Shown here piece after piece: positions 53,639-62,232 of a stretch of DNA of 64,000 nucleotides. The translations under genes were made by a program, and so were the position numbers. Within the stretch, counting starts at the first letter, position 1. Every line of letters starts with the position of its first letter. The DNA comes from Paramecium tetraurelia (taxonomy: Eukaryota > Ciliophora > Oligohymenophorea > Peniculida > Parameciidae): positions 199,204 to 263,203 of the forward strand of contig NW_001799377.1 of the NCBI RefSeq assembly GCF_000165425.1, given 5' to 3'. The notes beneath the pieces were generated by a model. That model was not told where the DNA came from, did no database searches, and saw only the letters and a program-made list of their open reading frames with translations.

Positions 53639-54397
53639 AATTATTTACTAAATTATTTATAATATTAATTAATATGAGAAACTATGAATAATAAGTATAT
53701 ATTTGATCGAATTAAGTCGATTATTGCTGATCATTAAATTTTCGATTAAAATATCATATGAGAGTTCGATTTAAATTTAACCATAAAGATAAATCTTGTT
53801 CTTTTTTATTTAAAATATATGAATGATCACTTTTAGACAATTTTCAATCATTCTAAATTTTAATTCAGTATGTTTATCACACTAAAATTTTTATTCCATG
53901 AAACTATGAATTAGCAAATTTAGGTAAAGGTATAAAGTAAAGAATGATTCTTAAGGGTTTATCAACATCTCCCACATGATTTAGAGTTTAAACCTTTTTA
54001 TCTTTGAATAGGAAATTATTCTAAACAAGAAAAAGAAAAAGTGGTATCACCTATATGATTTCACACTATATTTACTTAGTTTAATTTGTTCTTAATTATT
54101 TTTCTATTACTTTTTTTATCTTGAAAAATAACAAATAGTTCAAAAAATCAAAGAGAGTTCAATCTATTATTCTTAATAATCTTGTTAAGTAAACCTTAAT
54201 TAAAATTGGCATCTTATAATAATTAAAATTAACATACTAATTTCAAAGTTTGCTTATAGAATTCTCATTCAAAGTAGGGATGTAAGTTATATTTTTATTT
54301 ATTTTTTGATAATTATAAAATTTTAATGTTTCCAAAGAATAAATTCAGAAATTTAAATAATTCAAAACATTAAAAATATTTTTATTTTTTTTTAATT
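53639..54397. other. Spacer of 760 nt
   Basis: Between divergent genes. Very AT-rich with a slightly more balanced stretch at 53880-54080. I tested for tRNA-like B-box sequence and open frames by eye and found none. A non-coding RNA cannot be excluded. Confidence 0.4.
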
Positions 54398-54793
54398 ATG
54401 AATCCCGCCTAAACCATTGCACAATAATTCCTTTAACAATACTACTAGACTTTAATGACAAACAAAATGGGATTAATCTAATTTTATACAGATGCCTCTC
54501 ATATGACATATGGTTTTTATTTGTATTTATTATTTTTAGGTGGATAATAACATGATGGCTTAAAATAAATCAACGAAAAATTGGAATCATTGGCTTTCTA
54601 AAAAATAGTTTATAAAATTGATGATATGGATGTTTAACCAGGAGCATTGGAGAATTCATTATTCATTTTTGTCACTGGGTAATTGCAGATGGATGATGCT
54701 GAGACATACAAATTCTCATAAAGTTTTTAAATTCTTCCAAATGGCTAAGGAGGTTTATACGTGCATAATGATATCTTCAGATTAGTTTATTGA
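54398..54793 (+). CDS. NTF2: Nuclear transport factor 2
   Basis: 122 aa, the typical NTF2 length, with one 27-nt intron (54513-54539). Sequence: AQQFLQQYYQTLMTNKMGLIQFYTDASHMTYG, then GQQHDGLKQINEKLESLAFQKIVYKID, DVQPGALENSLFIFVTGQL and the C-terminal GGLYVHNDIFRLVY. NTF2 carries Ran-GDP into the nucleus by binding FG repeats of nucleoporins. The intron splits the YG/GQQ junction as expected. It lies about 3 kb from the FG-repeat/Rae1 gene. Confidence 0.94.
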
Positions 54794-54821
54794 TATATAT
54801 TAATAATAAAAATTATTAAAA

Positions 54822-55336
54822 ATGGGATTCGAAGATTAGATTCCACCAATTCCAAATAGAGATTAAGAAAAGAGATATATTGCCACAGTTGAAAAGTCAT
54901 TCTACGACTAACCACTCTATAAATTTTATATGAATGAAGCATTAAGAGAAAGAAAGATGGATTATGCTGATAAATTAAACACATTCAAATATGAATGGAT
55001 TCTAAACTTTGCTGCTTCTGGAATTGTATTCAGCTTATTATATGTAATATTTAGTATTGAATCATTAGTTTATCCCTGTGTCATATTAATATAGATAAAC
55101 ATCAACAGGCGTTCCAACATACTATCAGTATTTATCTAAAATTTAATTTTAGACCCAAGAATAAAGCTGTCTTCAAATAAGGATACTTGCAAAATTAAAA
55201 TTGGAGGAGATTTAAATTGTATTCATTCCTTGTTTTTGGATCAGCATTCATATTTGCTCATACTTATACAGATAGATCATAAATTCATGATGAATATTAC
55301 AATAATGTGGGTGTCATCAAACCAAAGTTTGAATGA
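54822..55336 (+). CDS. Two-helix membrane protein, unknown
   Basis: 154 aa; introns 55044-55068 and 55128-55152 (25 nt each). An N-terminal soluble part (MGFEDQIPPIPNRDQEKRYIATVEKSFYDQPLYKFYM) precedes a hydrophobic helix (WILNFAASGIVFSLLYF), a basic loop with YYQPKNKAVFKQGYL, a second helix (LYSFLVFGSAFIFAHTY) and a short tail. The character fits a mitochondrial inner-membrane accessory subunit, but no family is recognised. It starts 28 nt after the NTF2 stop. Confidence 0.8.
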
Positions 55337-55887
55337 ATAAATCGATAAATATACAAATTTTAATTATAATAACAAAATTACTATTAGCGCATCAATATTT
55401 AAATAAATGAGAAAAAGATAATTTAAATAAGCAATTATGTTATCCGTTTAAATCTATACTATTCTCAATTATAATTGATCTATTCAATATTTATATTATT
55501 TATAATTTATTTTTAAAACAAAATTAATCAAAGCACAATTCTTAACACCATTCCAAACTAATTTTGTAAATCTTTGAAATCGATTCAGTGTCATTTAAAT
55601 CTTAAAATTCTAAGATCTTATTTAACAATATTTATTCATTAGATTAAGAAATGCCTTTATAGCAGGTGCATTGATAGCACATAAATCCCAGCAATTATAC
55701 GTATAAAATGTTACTTCTTACATAACACCTAATTTATATTATATAGAGAAGATCTTTATGCTGGATAAAATTGTATAAAGATTTTGTAACATATTTAATA
55801 ACTTATTAGGATTATTCAATATAAATTATGAATAGCCCATAATGGTTTAAATTAGAGTAAAAAATATTTAATGCAGATTATAAATAT
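55337..55887. other. Spacer between convergent genes
   Basis: About 550 nt. A + strand frame around 55640-55800 (RLRNAFIAGALIAHKSQQ) is open but has no start and no recognisable domain, so I leave it uncalled. The rest is AT-rich. Confidence 0.4.
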
Positions 55888-56936
55888 TCAATATTGGTAA
55901 CTATTCAATTAGACGATAAAGTCAGATGATTTTTATGCTACATTATTATCACATATTTGATATGATTTAAAAATTTCCATTTATTTTTCTAAACTATTTT
56001 AGGCAACTGATTCATTATTGTCATTACTTTAATCTAATTAGAATATATATATATAATACCAGACTCCTCAATATTTTACTACTCTTATTAAAAATCCTTT
56101 TCATTTTTTTATATCTATTTATCCATTTCTTCAAAATCTACAATATCAGGTTCCTAATTTTTTTAGTATGGAACTTTTTCATTTTAAACAATCTCCTCTT
56201 GACATTTATCCATTTTTTCAAAATCTACAATATCAGATTCCATATCTTGTTATTAACCATTCGTTTGCTCAAATATGTTTATAAAATTATTAAAGTGTTA
56301 TTGGTTAAGTTTCAGTTTATTATATTCTTAACATCTATCCAAAGAAGAAGATAATATCCTCTCTATATTTTCCCTCGATGAAACGCTTTGCATATTTTCA
56401 ATCAATCTATCAGAACTAGTGTATTTTGCTACTGATTTTAGCATATACTCAATTTATTTTGCTATTGATTCTAGCATACCCTTCAAATTATGATTGAATT
56501 ATTGACAAATTTTATTATTCATATTTTCACCATTTATGCCAGATAATAATGTATAATCACTATCTTCTATAGAAGTCTTGGCTTGAATTTTGCCCAGACA
56601 AAATTCCAGTTATTCTTTATTTGTTTTAAAGCCTTATTATATTTAATTATTATCCTTCTTACAACTTTTGAGTATTTCGGAACTTTTTTGAATTTCCTGA
56701 AGTAAATCATCATATTAATTTATTTTGTCCATATACATGTTCAAACTGGCTTAAATATACTCTGATATTAGAAATATTTTTGCTATTGAATTTTATTTTG
56801 TGATTTCAATTTCATAACATTCGCCACATAAGAACGTCAATATTTCTTGATCTATATAACATCCTATAGGCGTTTATCGTTGATCTATTAGATGAGTACA
56901 CTTATATCTATAATTGTGATGTTCTTACAAAATCAT
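55888..56936 (-). CDS. Zinc-finger (B-box-like) coiled-coil protein
   Basis: About 340 aa on the minus strand; one 26-nt intron (56034-56059). The N-terminus carries a Cys/His pattern typical of Paramecium B-box-like proteins: YKCTHLIDQRQTPIGCY, then FLCGECYEIE. Coiled-coil and helical sequence follows (ASLNMYMDKINQYDDLLQEIQ, MLESIAKQIEYMLKSVAKY). The near-identical blocks DIVDFEKMDK and DIVDFEEMDK flank an acidic linker near the C-terminus. In this family such N-termini are often followed by WD repeats; here the frame ends without them. Confidence 0.75.
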
Positions 56937-57029
56937 TTTTATTTTTTTTATAAAATTTTAATTTTTAATGTTTAGTTTAAGCTATATTATTATTAGTGAA
57001 ATGATAATAACAATATATATAGATATGTA

Positions 57030-58979
57030 TCATTTAGGATATCTTAGTTCATTCTCTGGAATAAAATGAACAAATATTTTTGGTTAAAATTCATTGAAGT
57101 ATTCAGGCCCTTTTGAAAAATCATTACCTAAAGCATATGCTAGCATGGAACCATCAGGACTCATTTTGGCACAGACAATAGGATTACAATTGAATTAAAA
57201 TGTTCTGATTTTATTTCTAACATTAATATCCCAAAAGATCATTTGACCTTCTCCTCCAGCTGTCATTAAAAAGTAGTTGTTTTTGATATTCATTTGGATG
57301 CAATTAACAGGAAAGAAATAGTTTTAAATTTTTCCTTTTTGATTATCTTCAACCTAAATAATGAACAATATATTTACTTTATGAGCTTTAAAAGTCATGA
57401 TTGATTTTAATGAAAATTCAGTAGGCATTCCGTGAGTGGATTTGGTTGTAATATTCGTCTAATGTCCTCTACCATCAATGGATCCCAAAGTAAACCCATC
57501 TCTTGCTGGAAATATTGCTATTGAAGTTAATTGTGAATAGGTTCCCAATGGTGAATCAATGTATTAAAATCTACCCGGTAACTATTACAATTCATTCAAA
57601 TTAATGATTGTTAATTTTTCAGATGCAAATCCAATAACCAATAATGGGAAATTACAATCAGATACCATTGGTTTGTATTAGAATTGACATTAAAATCTTG
57701 GTTATCCTGGAGCTCTGATATCCCACATTTTTAATGATTAATCTGTAGATATTGATAATATCATTTATGCTGATTCTATCCAATAAACAGAAATTATTAA
57801 TGCTTAATGTTGTCCTACTGAAACCATCTAGCCTGAATTAACATCAATAACTCTGACTGTGTGATCAAATCCACATCCTACGAATATTTGAGACAAATCT
57901 CCCTTAGCATCCATACAAACTATTGGATTTTATACTTATCCAACTGCTCCATCAACCTAAAAGGATCTTCTTTCAAATAATTCTCTTTTGTATGAGTTTT
58001 GTTGGATCTCCAATATTCTGACCTTACCATCCCAAGAAGATATAGCTAAGAAATTAGGTATGGTTGTTCCCCAACATATTGCTGAAACTGAATCTTCCAA
58101 TCTAATTCTCTATTCCAAACTTGCATCATTAACTGAATCATCAACACCTCCAGGCAATACGATTTAATTACCAACTTACCCTTATTGTCCTAATCCACCT
58201 CCAAATCCAAGACCTGGTTGAACTTATTATTAAGGTTATTATTAACCAAAAAGAGAAGTCCCAGGAGCAGCAGTTTATTATTATCCAAATCCAAATCCAG
58301 TCTGTTGTGGTTATTAAGGTGTCTATCCAAATAAGCCTCCCTATTGTTATCCAAAGGGTTAAGCAGCAGGAGCTGGAGCACCAAATAAACCTGTTGCTTA
58401 CTGTTATGGTTATTAAGGTTATTAACCAAATAAGGTTGGCTATTATTATTATTATTACTATCCAAATAGTCCTCCTCCACTTTAAGGAGTTTAACCAAAT
58501 AATCCTCCTTGCTAAGTTGTTTAACCTAATAATCCAGGCTATTATCCAAATCCAGTTCCAAGTGAGCCACCTAATCCTGTTCCTAACCCTCCTCCTAAGC
58601 CACCGAAAGTAGGTGCTTGTTATCCTAATACTGGGGGTTAGCCTAATCCGCCAGGCGCTCCAAATGTGCTTGATTATTATTGTTAAAGTCCGAGTCCACC
58701 TCCAAGCTAACCTCCTAGACCTCCTCCGAGGCCTCCTCCAAGACCACCTCCAAGGCCTCCGCCTAATCCTCCTTATTGCATCTAACCTCCCATTAAACCA
58801 CCAAAACCAGGTTGTCCTTGTGTTCCCTGTACTTAACCAAATAAACCTTATTATGGAGCTGTATTTGGAAATAGTCCTCCTTATACACCAGTTGGTGCCC
58901 CAAAATTACCTAATATACCTCCTATTCCTCCACTTGTTTAAGTTGGATTTTAGTTCCCAAACATACTACCTCCGAACAT
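57030..58979 (-). CDS. RAE1: GLFG-repeat nucleoporin domain fused to Rae1/Gle2 WD40 propeller
   Basis: One minus-strand frame of about 641 aa. Residues 1 to about 270 are G/Q/L/F/P-rich with FG and GLFG repeats (MFGGSMFGNQ, QGLFGQ, GGLFGQTPQ, GGGLFGQ, PTLFGQQ, TGLFGAP, TSLFGQ), the composition of phase-forming nucleoporins. From IVLPGGVDDSVNDAS a Rae1-type beta-propeller follows: VSAICWGTTIPNFLAISSWDGKVRILEI, FVGCGFDHTVRVIDV, TDQSLKMWDIRAP, FTLGSIDGRG, FFWDINVRNK-type blade, and the diagnostic AYALGNDFSKGPEYFNEF. One possible 24-nt intron (57354-57377). Rae1 normally docks on Nup98 through a GLEBS motif; here propeller and FG repeats share one chain. No frame break lies between the parts. Confidence 0.9.
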
Positions 58980-59274
58980 AATAAATTTAAATTATTTAAA
59001 ATAATTATTAAAAATTTAGAATGCAAATTTTAATAACCCTGGAAACCATAGTATTTTATCAAAATAAAGGAAGTAATTATAATAGAATCTGGAGAAACAT
59101 TATTTGTAATCAATAAGAATTTAAATTTGGAAATTCAAACGCAATCATATCTCTCTCAATATTACAGAATGATCCCTGTAAAGAATATAAGTGTTTAACA
59201 TAATCTACAATTTATCTAAATTGATTTTTGAAGCTATATTTTTAACTTATTATTTTTAAATAAATATTTAATTA
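58980..59274. promoter_or_regulatory. Divergent intergenic region
   Basis: 295 nt between the start of the FG-Rae1 gene (-) and the EF-hand gene (+). It must contain both promoters; no motif is recognisable. Confidence 0.3.
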
Positions 59275-60258
59275 ATGAAACAAGCCTAACCTTTCATTCC
59301 TCTTGCTGTTGATGATAATAAAGAATACGATATCAAAAATATACTTTAAAAATAAATTAAAACATTATCACCTGAGGAATATCATTTTTTTAGTTTCCTA
59401 ATAGCTACTAATCATGTTTTTGAACAATTAACTAATTGTTAAAACAAATTGAATAATGATCCAACTTTTAGTTTGTGGAAGCTCTTTGAATTCTTTGATG
59501 TTAATGGCGATAGAAAACTACAATTAGATGATTTTATTATCACATTACAAAAATTAGACATTCTTCTTAAAAGAGAAGAAATTGAATCCTTATTTACAAC
59601 TTTAGGTGGTGAGGATGACAATATCATTTCATACGCAGAATTTGCTAATTTATTAAAATTCTCCACTACACCATAATGGAGATAATCAAAAGTACCTTCA
59701 GAAGGTGTTTTGAATTAGGAACATTAAAAATTAATACATTAGATTTTTAGTTTGTATGCAAAAATAGAAAGGAGCCTTTTATATCTCAGAACACAAATAG
59801 GAAATGATATTCAAAAGCTTGAAGACTTTTTTAGAAAATTGGATTAGAAATAAAAAGGCTATTTAGTATTCAATGACTTTGTTGCTTATATAAAGTCCAA
59901 AGGCGTTCAAGTAAAAGGTAATGATTACTATAGAGTGTTCTTTATGCTTTAGTAATATAAATCAGGTAGAATTAGTTTTAATGAGTTTTTGAAGAAATTT
60001 TCAACAAGAGAAGAGTATCAAAATTATTAGCAATAATTAGATCTATTGATTCATCCTCCTTAAATGGCTATAAGAGAATCGATTGAATAATAGCCTGCTC
60101 TTCAATATAAAGTAGATAGCTCAGCCAATTTTGAAAACAAACAAGTACAATAAAATGAGATGTCATCAAAAATATCTTAGTAATCTAGATTTTCATAAGA
60201 TCTTGATGACTCTATCAGATTGCCAGGATATACTAGATATGTTTTTGGAAATAATTGA
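59275..60258 (+). CDS. EF-hand protein
   Basis: 327 aa in one frame of 328 codons. Helical N-terminus (LSPEEYHFFSFLIATNHVFEQL), then EF-hand loops DVNGDRKLQLDD (good), GGEDDNIISYAE (degenerate), DQKQKGYLVFND and QQYKSGRISFNE (degenerate). A polar tail ends in DSIRLPGYTRYVFGNN. A possible 27-nt GT-AG segment near 59688-59714 keeps the frame and has no TGA, and its translation fits, so I treat it as exon. Probably a calcium-regulated cytoskeletal or signalling protein. Family otherwise not identified. Confidence 0.85.
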
Positions 60259-60734
60259 ATCATAATTTATTACAATATTAATTAAGTATTTTTAGACTTT
60301 AGTTCATATACTTATATAATGTAATTTAAATATATATAATGTAACTAAACAACAAAATTATTTAATGTTACGTACTCTGACTAATTACTACTAAGTTTTT
60401 TTATGGATTATTTAAATAACGACCAAAAATAAAATTTAGTTTATTAAAGTTATTTATCCATTTTTAGCTTTCCCAGAAAATGAAAGATTTCATATGATTG
60501 CAATGAGAGTTAAAATACTTATGTAATTACTTGCATTTGAATCGATCTTTGAATTTAGAAATCTATTTTAGGTGAACTCTTTTTAGAATGTATTGTGACA
60601 ATGAGTCGTAGTTATTATTTAGTTAACTTTTAAAACAATAGGGATTTTATTCTAAACATATTTAAATATCCTCTTGGCAATGAATTAAATTTGAAAATAA
60701 TTTTAGTTAACTTAAAATTTTTATTAATTTTTTA
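60259..60734. other. AT-rich spacer
   Basis: About 475 nt between two + strand genes; A/T tracts, no coding frame or RNA seen. Confidence 0.5.
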
Positions 60735-62232
60735 ATGAACTCAGTATCCACTAACACTTCATTTACAGAAGTTAGGATTGTTAAAATCTACTTGAAGATT
60801 CATTACATAACAAAATTTGGATAGGCAATCTATTTATGTGGTGATGATGAATCTTTAGGAATGTGGGATCCTTGCAAGGCACTCCGTTTGTAATGGAATC
60901 AGGTACTTAATTTAATTACTTAAGAATCACGAATGGACCATCTGTATCAAGCTGCCTCGAATCAGCCGAAAATTTGAGTACAAATTCCTGGTCAACAACT
61001 ACAATGAGCCTTAAATTCACTATGCCTTTTGGGAACCTGGTGAAAATCGTATAATCACCAAGCACTTGCTACTTAATGGCAAGAAGAACGAGTACTTTAA
61101 TTGTAATGCAGTTCTAATACTATTTATAGAGGAGTTTTGGGGATATAGGACTATTAAATTAAAACTCAATCACACTTTACAACCGAAAGAACGCATGATG
61201 ATAATAGGATCTATTCCTGAGATTGGTTCCTGGAAATCACCTGTGCTTATGAAATAGCAAATGAAGATTGATATTTGTAATACATCAATATTGTATTTCT
61301 AGTAACTGAAGAGGCCACCCAACAATGGTCAATATCATTTATTGTGGACCCCCTTAACTTTTTCTTCCGTTACTATTATGTGATTAGAAATGATGACACA
61401 GGTAAAATGATATGGGAAAGAGGCAATGGGCGTTACTTAAAAAGTGCTGATTTATCCTCAATTAGGTAAGTATTGGATTAGTATGATCTTCATCCAATCA
61501 AAGTGAAGACTGAAATATACTCAGCTATTCAGGCTAGGCAATTCAATAAAAACGGATCTTTCTCTTCTTCAAAAATACCAAAATCTAAGATCAAATAAAA
61601 GAATCAAGGCTACTCCTTTGCAGATAAGGAGCCTTCCTTTTTTTATTACGAAGAATTTGGAAGATTAAATAAGTTGGATTGGAATTTTGTAGTTCAATTC
61701 TAAACTTATGAAATAAATGAGAATATTTTGATAGGACCTTATCCATAAAATGAGTAAGATATTCTTTACTTAAAATAATAATAAGTTAGAGCAGTTCTCA
61801 ATCTCTAAACACGTCTTGATATGTTCCATCGTGGAGTTAATTGGGAACAAATAGTAGATGCTTATAAGAGACACAATATTGTGATGAAGAACTATTAAAT
61901 TTTTGACATGGATTCTGAAGATTTCGAAAAAAAATCTAATAAAGCAGTTCAAATTCTTAAAAAATTAATTAATGAATATGAATATGTCTATGTCCATTGT
62001 ACAGCAGGAATAGGCAGAGCCCCTTCCATAGTAGTTCTTTACTTAGCATCAATCCTCCAATATGATTTAAAAGATGCAATAGAATTTGTCAAATAAAAAA
62101 GGCAATAATTTTACATTAATTATTGTAATAATAGCAATCTAATATTATTTAGCAATGTTAAAAAAGTCGTACTAAAAAGCACTTGTATTTAATCATGGAT
62201 TAGGTTATTAGGAGTTAGCTTTAACATTTTGA
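60735..62232 (+). CDS. Laforin-type glucan phosphatase: two CBM20 modules plus dual-specificity phosphatase
   Basis: About 473 aa; introns 60903-60924, 61277-61302 and 62125-62152. Two starch-binding CBM20 modules come first: YLKIHYITKFGQAIYLCGDDESLGMWDP...HEWTICIKLPR...FEYKFLVNN and RTIKLKLNHTLQPKERMMIIGSIPEIGSWKSP...FFFRYYYVIRNDDTG. The phosphatase domain carries ILIGPYPQNEQDI, VRAVLNLQ, MDSEDF (Asp general acid region) and VHCTAGIGRAPS, which fits the glucan-phosphatase version (C-x-A-G-x-G-R) of the active site. Such enzymes remove phosphate from glycogen or amylopectin. Laforin has one CBM20; two are present here. The last intron restores a coherent C-terminus (SYQKALVFNHGLGYQELALTF). 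Confidence 0.92.

Follow-up and report, generated by a model that had tools for sequence, protein, structure and literature searches.

In the usual description, Rae1 is a mobile export factor that Nup98 holds. In the stretch of Paramecium tetraurelia DNA analyzed here (64,000 nucleotides, hereafter the window), one reading frame carries both a long run of FG and GLFG repeats and a Rae1-like propeller, and an earlier note on this DNA read it as a nucleoporin GLFG domain fused to Rae1. This raises the questions of whether the two parts belong to a single gene, here called FG-Rae1, how the FG part arose, and what such a protein would do at the nuclear pore.

The frame lies on the minus strand, starts with ATG at 58979, ends with TGA at 57032-57030, and comprises 649 codons if unspliced (ciliate code, NCBI table 6). 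The earlier note described a single uninterrupted frame with an FG part of about 270 residues and a full Rae1, and without a stop, splice boundary or frame change between them. This description stands: the frame is open from 58979 to 57030, the FG half has 276 residues, the match to RAE1 spans residues 15-350 of the 363-residue spliced propeller, and no stop or frame change separates the halves in the window frame. Moreover, when GTA...AG intron candidates were scanned at the junction, none of those listed (the shortest for each start) ended in TAG, and their A+T content was 0.54-0.63. The intron at 57377-57354 of the minus strand, by contrast, is of the GT...TAG type with the A+T content of 0.83. 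It is in phase and lacks TGA, and hence is readable in frame. It lies inside the propeller. The strand and this intron are additions to that note. As a duplicate of the gene, on contig C160, carries a 24-nt intron at the matching place, the spliced protein probably has 641 amino acids. The parts of the gene are as follows.

58152..58979, minus strand: FG tail, residues 1-276, with 18 FG including 5 GLFG, uncharged; 13 of the 18 FG are kept in the duplicate.
57378..58151, minus strand: first coding part of the Rae1-type propeller, residues 277-534, matched by phmmer to RAE1 chain 7byf_A.
57354..57377, minus strand: 24-nt phase-0 intron GTAAATATATTGTTCATTATTTAG; in the duplicate the place and length are the same and the sequence is different.
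57030..57353, minus strand: second coding part of the propeller and the stop TGA, holding the equivalents of W300, D301, R305, and K307 (human RAE1 numbering).

No methionine occurs between residues 67 and 356 of the window protein, and therefore a complete propeller cannot begin at an internal ATG in this copy.

The second copy was found by searching the genome itself (69.1 Mb, 231 contigs). Its G+C content of 26%, like the 24-nt intron and code 6, fits Paramecium, and six contig starts, one of which reads N, showed no telomere repeats. It is located at C160:226834-228753 and is 76% identical over positions 1-649 in the unspliced search. The surrounding segments are colinear: window positions 56988-60829 match the C160 segment at 78%, and identity is 88.7% for the EF-hand neighbour (59275-60258). 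The duplicate retains both halves, the frame, and the place of the intron. In the spliced pair, the FG half is 76.3% identical over 249 codons (dS 0.66, dN 0.157), and the propeller is 93.7% identical over 365 codons (dS 0.65, dN 0.035); the counts come from our own Nei-Gojobori script, and the repeats align less reliably than the propeller. The similar dS and the low dN in both halves indicate one gene, maintained as one. The FG half of the duplicate contains 14 FG, with 4.4 expected, and none of 20,000 shuffles reached 14. The C160 protein has a methionine at position 250, directly before the propeller, so that this copy could in principle produce a short form. Thus, the part of the earlier claim that places FG repeats and Rae1 on one polypeptide holds, given the single frame, the absence of an internal start in the window copy, and the syntenic duplicate, in which dN is low across both parts: as judged from the two sequences, FG-Rae1 appears to be a real and conserved polypeptide-coding gene in two syntenic copies.

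Divergence along the duplicated segments is uneven, as window positions 54393-55386 are 92.9% identical to the C160 segment, compared with 78% for 56988-60829; perhaps this reflects gene conversion or strong constraint. Between these regions, the minus strand of the window has a 343-aa frame (55905-56936) of repeated IVDFE.MDK-like units. It has no Pfam matches at E up to 0.01 and no tblastn match in the C160 segment, though both flanks match.

The tail has the features of an FG nucleoporin. The 18 FG compare with 6.0 expected from composition, and none of 20,000 shuffles reached this number; none of the 276 residues is D, E, K, or R, while glycine makes up 32% and glutamine 23%. Hence the FG and GLFG repeats exceed composition and are separated by uncharged spacers. 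The FG domain of Tetrahymena Mac98A is likewise reported to be poor in D, E, R, H, and K (excerpt of PMC8245513). The Pfam family Nucleoporin_FG scored 30.3 bits on the window protein, below the cut-off of 32.2, and 21.4 bits on the duplicate. The same family had no matches in the genome, missing even the window gene, and this search is thus uninformative. A TTTGG triplet pattern with one mismatch allowed occurred at 37 places (control, 18), none of them in either FG-Rae1 gene. The Nucleoporin2 domain (autopeptidase S59) was absent from the window protein among the 25 of 30 Pfam families listed, and the gene was not among the five genomic matches of this family (PF04096). Similarly, as the earlier note had observed for the FG half, a motif scan yielded no GLEBS-like stretch in the two FG-Rae1 loci, and the GLEBS family was missing from the 25 of 30 Pfam families listed for the window protein; both are weak tests. 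The segment ASLEQRIRLEDS upstream of the propeller looks GLEBS-like when compared with the GLEBS letters SLEELRLEDY; in the alignment it falls on the first propeller strand of RAE1 and BUB3, and the likeness was therefore treated as coincidence.

By search score, the propeller is closest to Rae1. Among PDB sequences, the best match of the spliced propeller was RAE1 chain 7byf_A (E 2.1e-31, 112 bits), and RAE1 chain 3mmy_A scored 109 bits (E 2.6e-30); yeast Bub3 scored 37 bits (E 1.9e-8). The chain 3mmy_A, presumably human, agrees with the human RAE1 sequence at all of 368 residues. Since homology over the whole propeller is better to Rae1 than to Bub3, the protein may be assigned to the Rae1/Gle2 type, although the pair has a low identity with human RAE1 (28.4 and 29.0%). 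The Pfam matches of the window protein were to WD40 and propeller models (25 of 30 families listed). Out of seven residues presumed to line the RNA groove of human RAE1, six are identical (R239, F257, W300, D301, R305, and K307), and K302 is replaced by isoleucine. As yeast BUB3 keeps five of these seven sites, the groove does not separate Rae1 from Bub3. The same is true for the SIEGR motif, which has been named for Rae1 (excerpt of PMC2951903) and is present here as GSIDGR, a conservative change from GSIEGR: it is found in Bub3 too and therefore does not discriminate between them.

Three further loci, on contigs C200, C14, and C43 (L011, L012, and L013, respectively), encode Rae1-like propellers with SVDGR or TVDGR in place of SIEGR. 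Among the listed frames longer than 120 residues within ca. 1.5 kb on either side of these loci, none was FG-rich. These tail-less paralogues may represent either Bub3 or another class of Rae1. In a tree with 12 rows, where five of the seven reference sequences were provisional, one 100/100 split set the FG-Rae1 pair and the three paralogues apart from RAE1 and BUB3. This split may be real or a long-branch effect (branches of 0.87 and 1.51), and the assignment of FG-Rae1 as a RAE1 orthologue therefore rests on the search scores. A single-sequence AlphaFold2 model of the window propeller with the intron retained had the mean pLDDT of 30.8 and was set aside. As expected, 33 peptide-pattern matches in bacterial and archaeal contigs and 14 in viral contigs included none confirmed by tblastn.

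PF04096 identified five Nup98 loci in the genome, separate from FG-Rae1. Four of them, on C2, C228, C158, and C153 (L019, L020, L021, and L023), have NIF-type repeats, with 5-10 NIF and no GLFG in the frames counted, and resemble the micronuclear Nup98s of Tetrahymena. At the C228 locus, a 1120-residue frame contains the Nucleoporin2 domain and extends well past it, as in the Nup98-Nup96 precursor. The fifth locus (L022, C206:31000-39000) is the only GLFG-type Nup98 found. It is rich in G, Q, and L, has long GLGTGLG runs, and resembles the macronuclear Nup98; within the 250 residues counted after its N-terminus there are six FG and no GLFG. A search with its C-terminal half revealed no close second copy. 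The Tetrahymena Nup98s with GLFG are macronuclear, and those with NIFN are micronuclear (excerpts of PMC4432229 and PMC5450191).

At its N-terminus, and not inside the FG domain, the C206 Nup98 has a charged GLEBS-like segment ISRAETRVEYYRNQK, a weak candidate. In ten loci translated in six frames each, E.[RK].E[DEYN]Y, a pattern of our own modelled on GLEBS letters, matched nowhere else. The Pfam GLEBS family (PF21240) did not match this Nup98 and had no matches genome-wide at E up to 1; control genomes were silent too, and therefore this search does not show the absence of GLEBS. Tetrahymena MacNup98A has a 44-residue GLEBS (excerpt of PMC8245513), and in Toxoplasma, another alveolate, TgNup302 (Nup98/96) interacts with TgRAE1, according to a review (excerpt of PMC5785795).

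GLFGQ was encoded at 139 places of the genome, compared with 137 for the reversed control pattern. Among the 100 of 139 places listed, clusters of at least two within 1 kb were observed only in the window gene (four places) and in its duplicate (three). The subsets with YTA and YTG leucine codons comprised 50 places (control, 38) and 34 places (control, 19), respectively, and all 84 were listed, yielding the same two clusters only; the remaining 55 YTY-leucine places were listed in part, and the count covers only GLFG followed by Q. By the measure of GLFGQ clusters among the places listed, FG-Rae1, rather than Nup98, is the GLFG-richest gene seen.

Could the frame instead run through two neighbouring genes, joined only by accident of the relaxed ciliate code? 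As TGA is its only stop, long chance frames are common, and many occur in the window; besides, the methionine of the duplicate lies directly before the propeller. Still, the conserved frame together with the lack of an internal start in the window copy argues strongly against two genes, as both the frame and the junction persist in the duplicate at dS of about 0.65 with low dN in both halves, and we regard this explanation as extremely improbable. It is also quite unlikely that the working Rae1 is one of the tail-less paralogues, with FG-Rae1 serving a different role. Such paralogues do exist, and the one searched, on C200, has RAE1 as its best PDB match, but with 67 bits compared with 112 bits for FG-Rae1, and the three are more diverged from human RAE1 (identity of 22.1, 22.5, and 26.2%) than the FG-Rae1 pair.

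The origin of the tail allows for two readings. In a true fusion, a GLFG nucleoporin, e.g., Nup98, would have supplied a copy of its FG domain, which joined the Rae1 gene before the duplication. The composition of the tail is indeed close to that of the C206 Nup98 (glycine 32 and 29%, glutamine 23% in both, charged residues none and one, respectively), and both have GLG runs, 12 in the tail and 21 in the Nup98. On the other hand, the counted stretch of this Nup98 has no GLFG, tails of such composition could lengthen by repeat slippage, and the RAE1 of PDB 3mmy already has three FG in a tail of 20 residues at its N-terminus. In shuffles of 3mmy_A residues 2-23, at least three FG were obtained in 113 of 20,000 cases. 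Rae1 of S. pombe (MSLFG) and of Arabidopsis (MATFG) presumably have FG tails as well, and yeast Gle2 (MSFFN) presumably has none; the canonical short tail is confirmed by sequence only for 3mmy. A short FG tail may thus be ancestral and enlarged here. As RAE1 of 3mmy already has such a tail, enlargement is the simpler origin, and we infer it in preference to a fusion of two genes, which seems unlikely. The other part of the earlier claim, a nucleoporin GLFG domain fused to Rae1, is therefore not the simplest reading, given the tail of 3mmy, the lack of a Nup98-defining domain among the Pfam families listed, and the separate Nup98 genes. In the open, CC-licensed PMC literature, as far as its texts were accessible and with most subscription papers outside it, we found no description of an FG-tailed Rae1; nor did we meet there a discussion of the FG tail of human RAE1 (3mmy_A residues 1-20). 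A further explanation, in line with the earlier note, is that Nup98 no longer binds Rae1 and that the tail alone recruits it, replacing a lost GLEBS docking. PF21240 is unmatched both in the genome and in the GLFG-type Nup98, and the FG-Rae1 loci (L009 and L010) lack a GLEBS-like motif; however, the controls were silent as well, and the candidate ISRAETRVEYYRNQK and the GLEBS reported for Tetrahymena MacNup98A (in the excerpt cited above) speak against such a replacement, which we consider unlikely.

We consider it reasonably probable that FG-Rae1 is a Rae1/Gle2-type propeller whose ancestral FG tail has grown into a Nup98-like domain, making Rae1 a resident nucleoporin of the macronuclear pore. 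According to this enlargement reading, a short N-terminal FG tail would have grown approximately twelve-fold into a charge-free, GLFG-rich FG domain. The tail would be cohesive, mixing with the GLFG-type FG phase of the macronuclear pore and keeping the propeller at a high local concentration within the channel, so that Rae1 would act as a resident FG nucleoporin instead of a freely shuttling factor. The propeller would bind the mRNP and perhaps also a GLEBS, any GLEBS docking being a second contact. Since pores of the NIFN and GLFG types differ in ciliates, the tail would be expected to direct the protein preferentially to the macronucleus, the site of mRNA synthesis. More speculatively, the GLFG barrier repeats could have effectively shifted from Nup98 to Rae1, as GLFGQ clusters among the places listed are found only in the FG-Rae1 pair and the counted stretch of the C206 Nup98 has no GLFG. 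Rae1 would then be a structural macronuclear FG nucleoporin, combining barrier and mRNA capture in one molecule and marking macronuclear as opposed to micronuclear (NIFN) pores; we find this doubtful.

The architecture appears to be a new variant of Rae1. If Rae1 does have its own Nup98-like FG domain, then a single molecule can serve as export factor and barrier. Such a protein would also allow a direct test of whether the two nuclei of one cell receive their export machinery according to FG type (GLFG or NIFN), and would make the short FG tail of human RAE1 worth notice.

Of the known systems, human RAE1 (3mmy_A) is similar to FG-Rae1 in a propeller homologous over nearly the whole length (E 2.6e-30), in GSIEGR (GSIDGR here), in six of the seven groove residues, and in FG dipeptides at the N-terminus. 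Unlike human RAE1, FG-Rae1 has a tail of 276 residues with 18 FG, rather than ca. 20 residues with three FG; the identity is 28%, and K302 is replaced. Bub3 belongs to the same propeller superfamily and shares the SIxGR motif and most of the groove residues, but yeast Bub3 has no FG tail and is a much weaker match (37 bits). The GLFG domain of Tetrahymena MacNup98A, like the tail of FG-Rae1, consists of charge-free, glycine-rich GLFG repeats (excerpt of PMC8245513). Unlike in Nup98, however, neither a Nucleoporin2 domain nor a GLEBS is seen in FG-Rae1, and the repeats lead into a propeller. Similar to FG-Rae1, Nup308 of Tetrahymena is a folded ciliate pore protein with GLFG repeats, which the authors suggest compensate for the few FG repeats of TtNup62 (excerpt of PMC5450191). 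In Nup308 the folded part is a Nup205-type scaffold with no mRNA-export propeller, whereas in FG-Rae1 the repeats are joined to a propeller of the Rae1 type.
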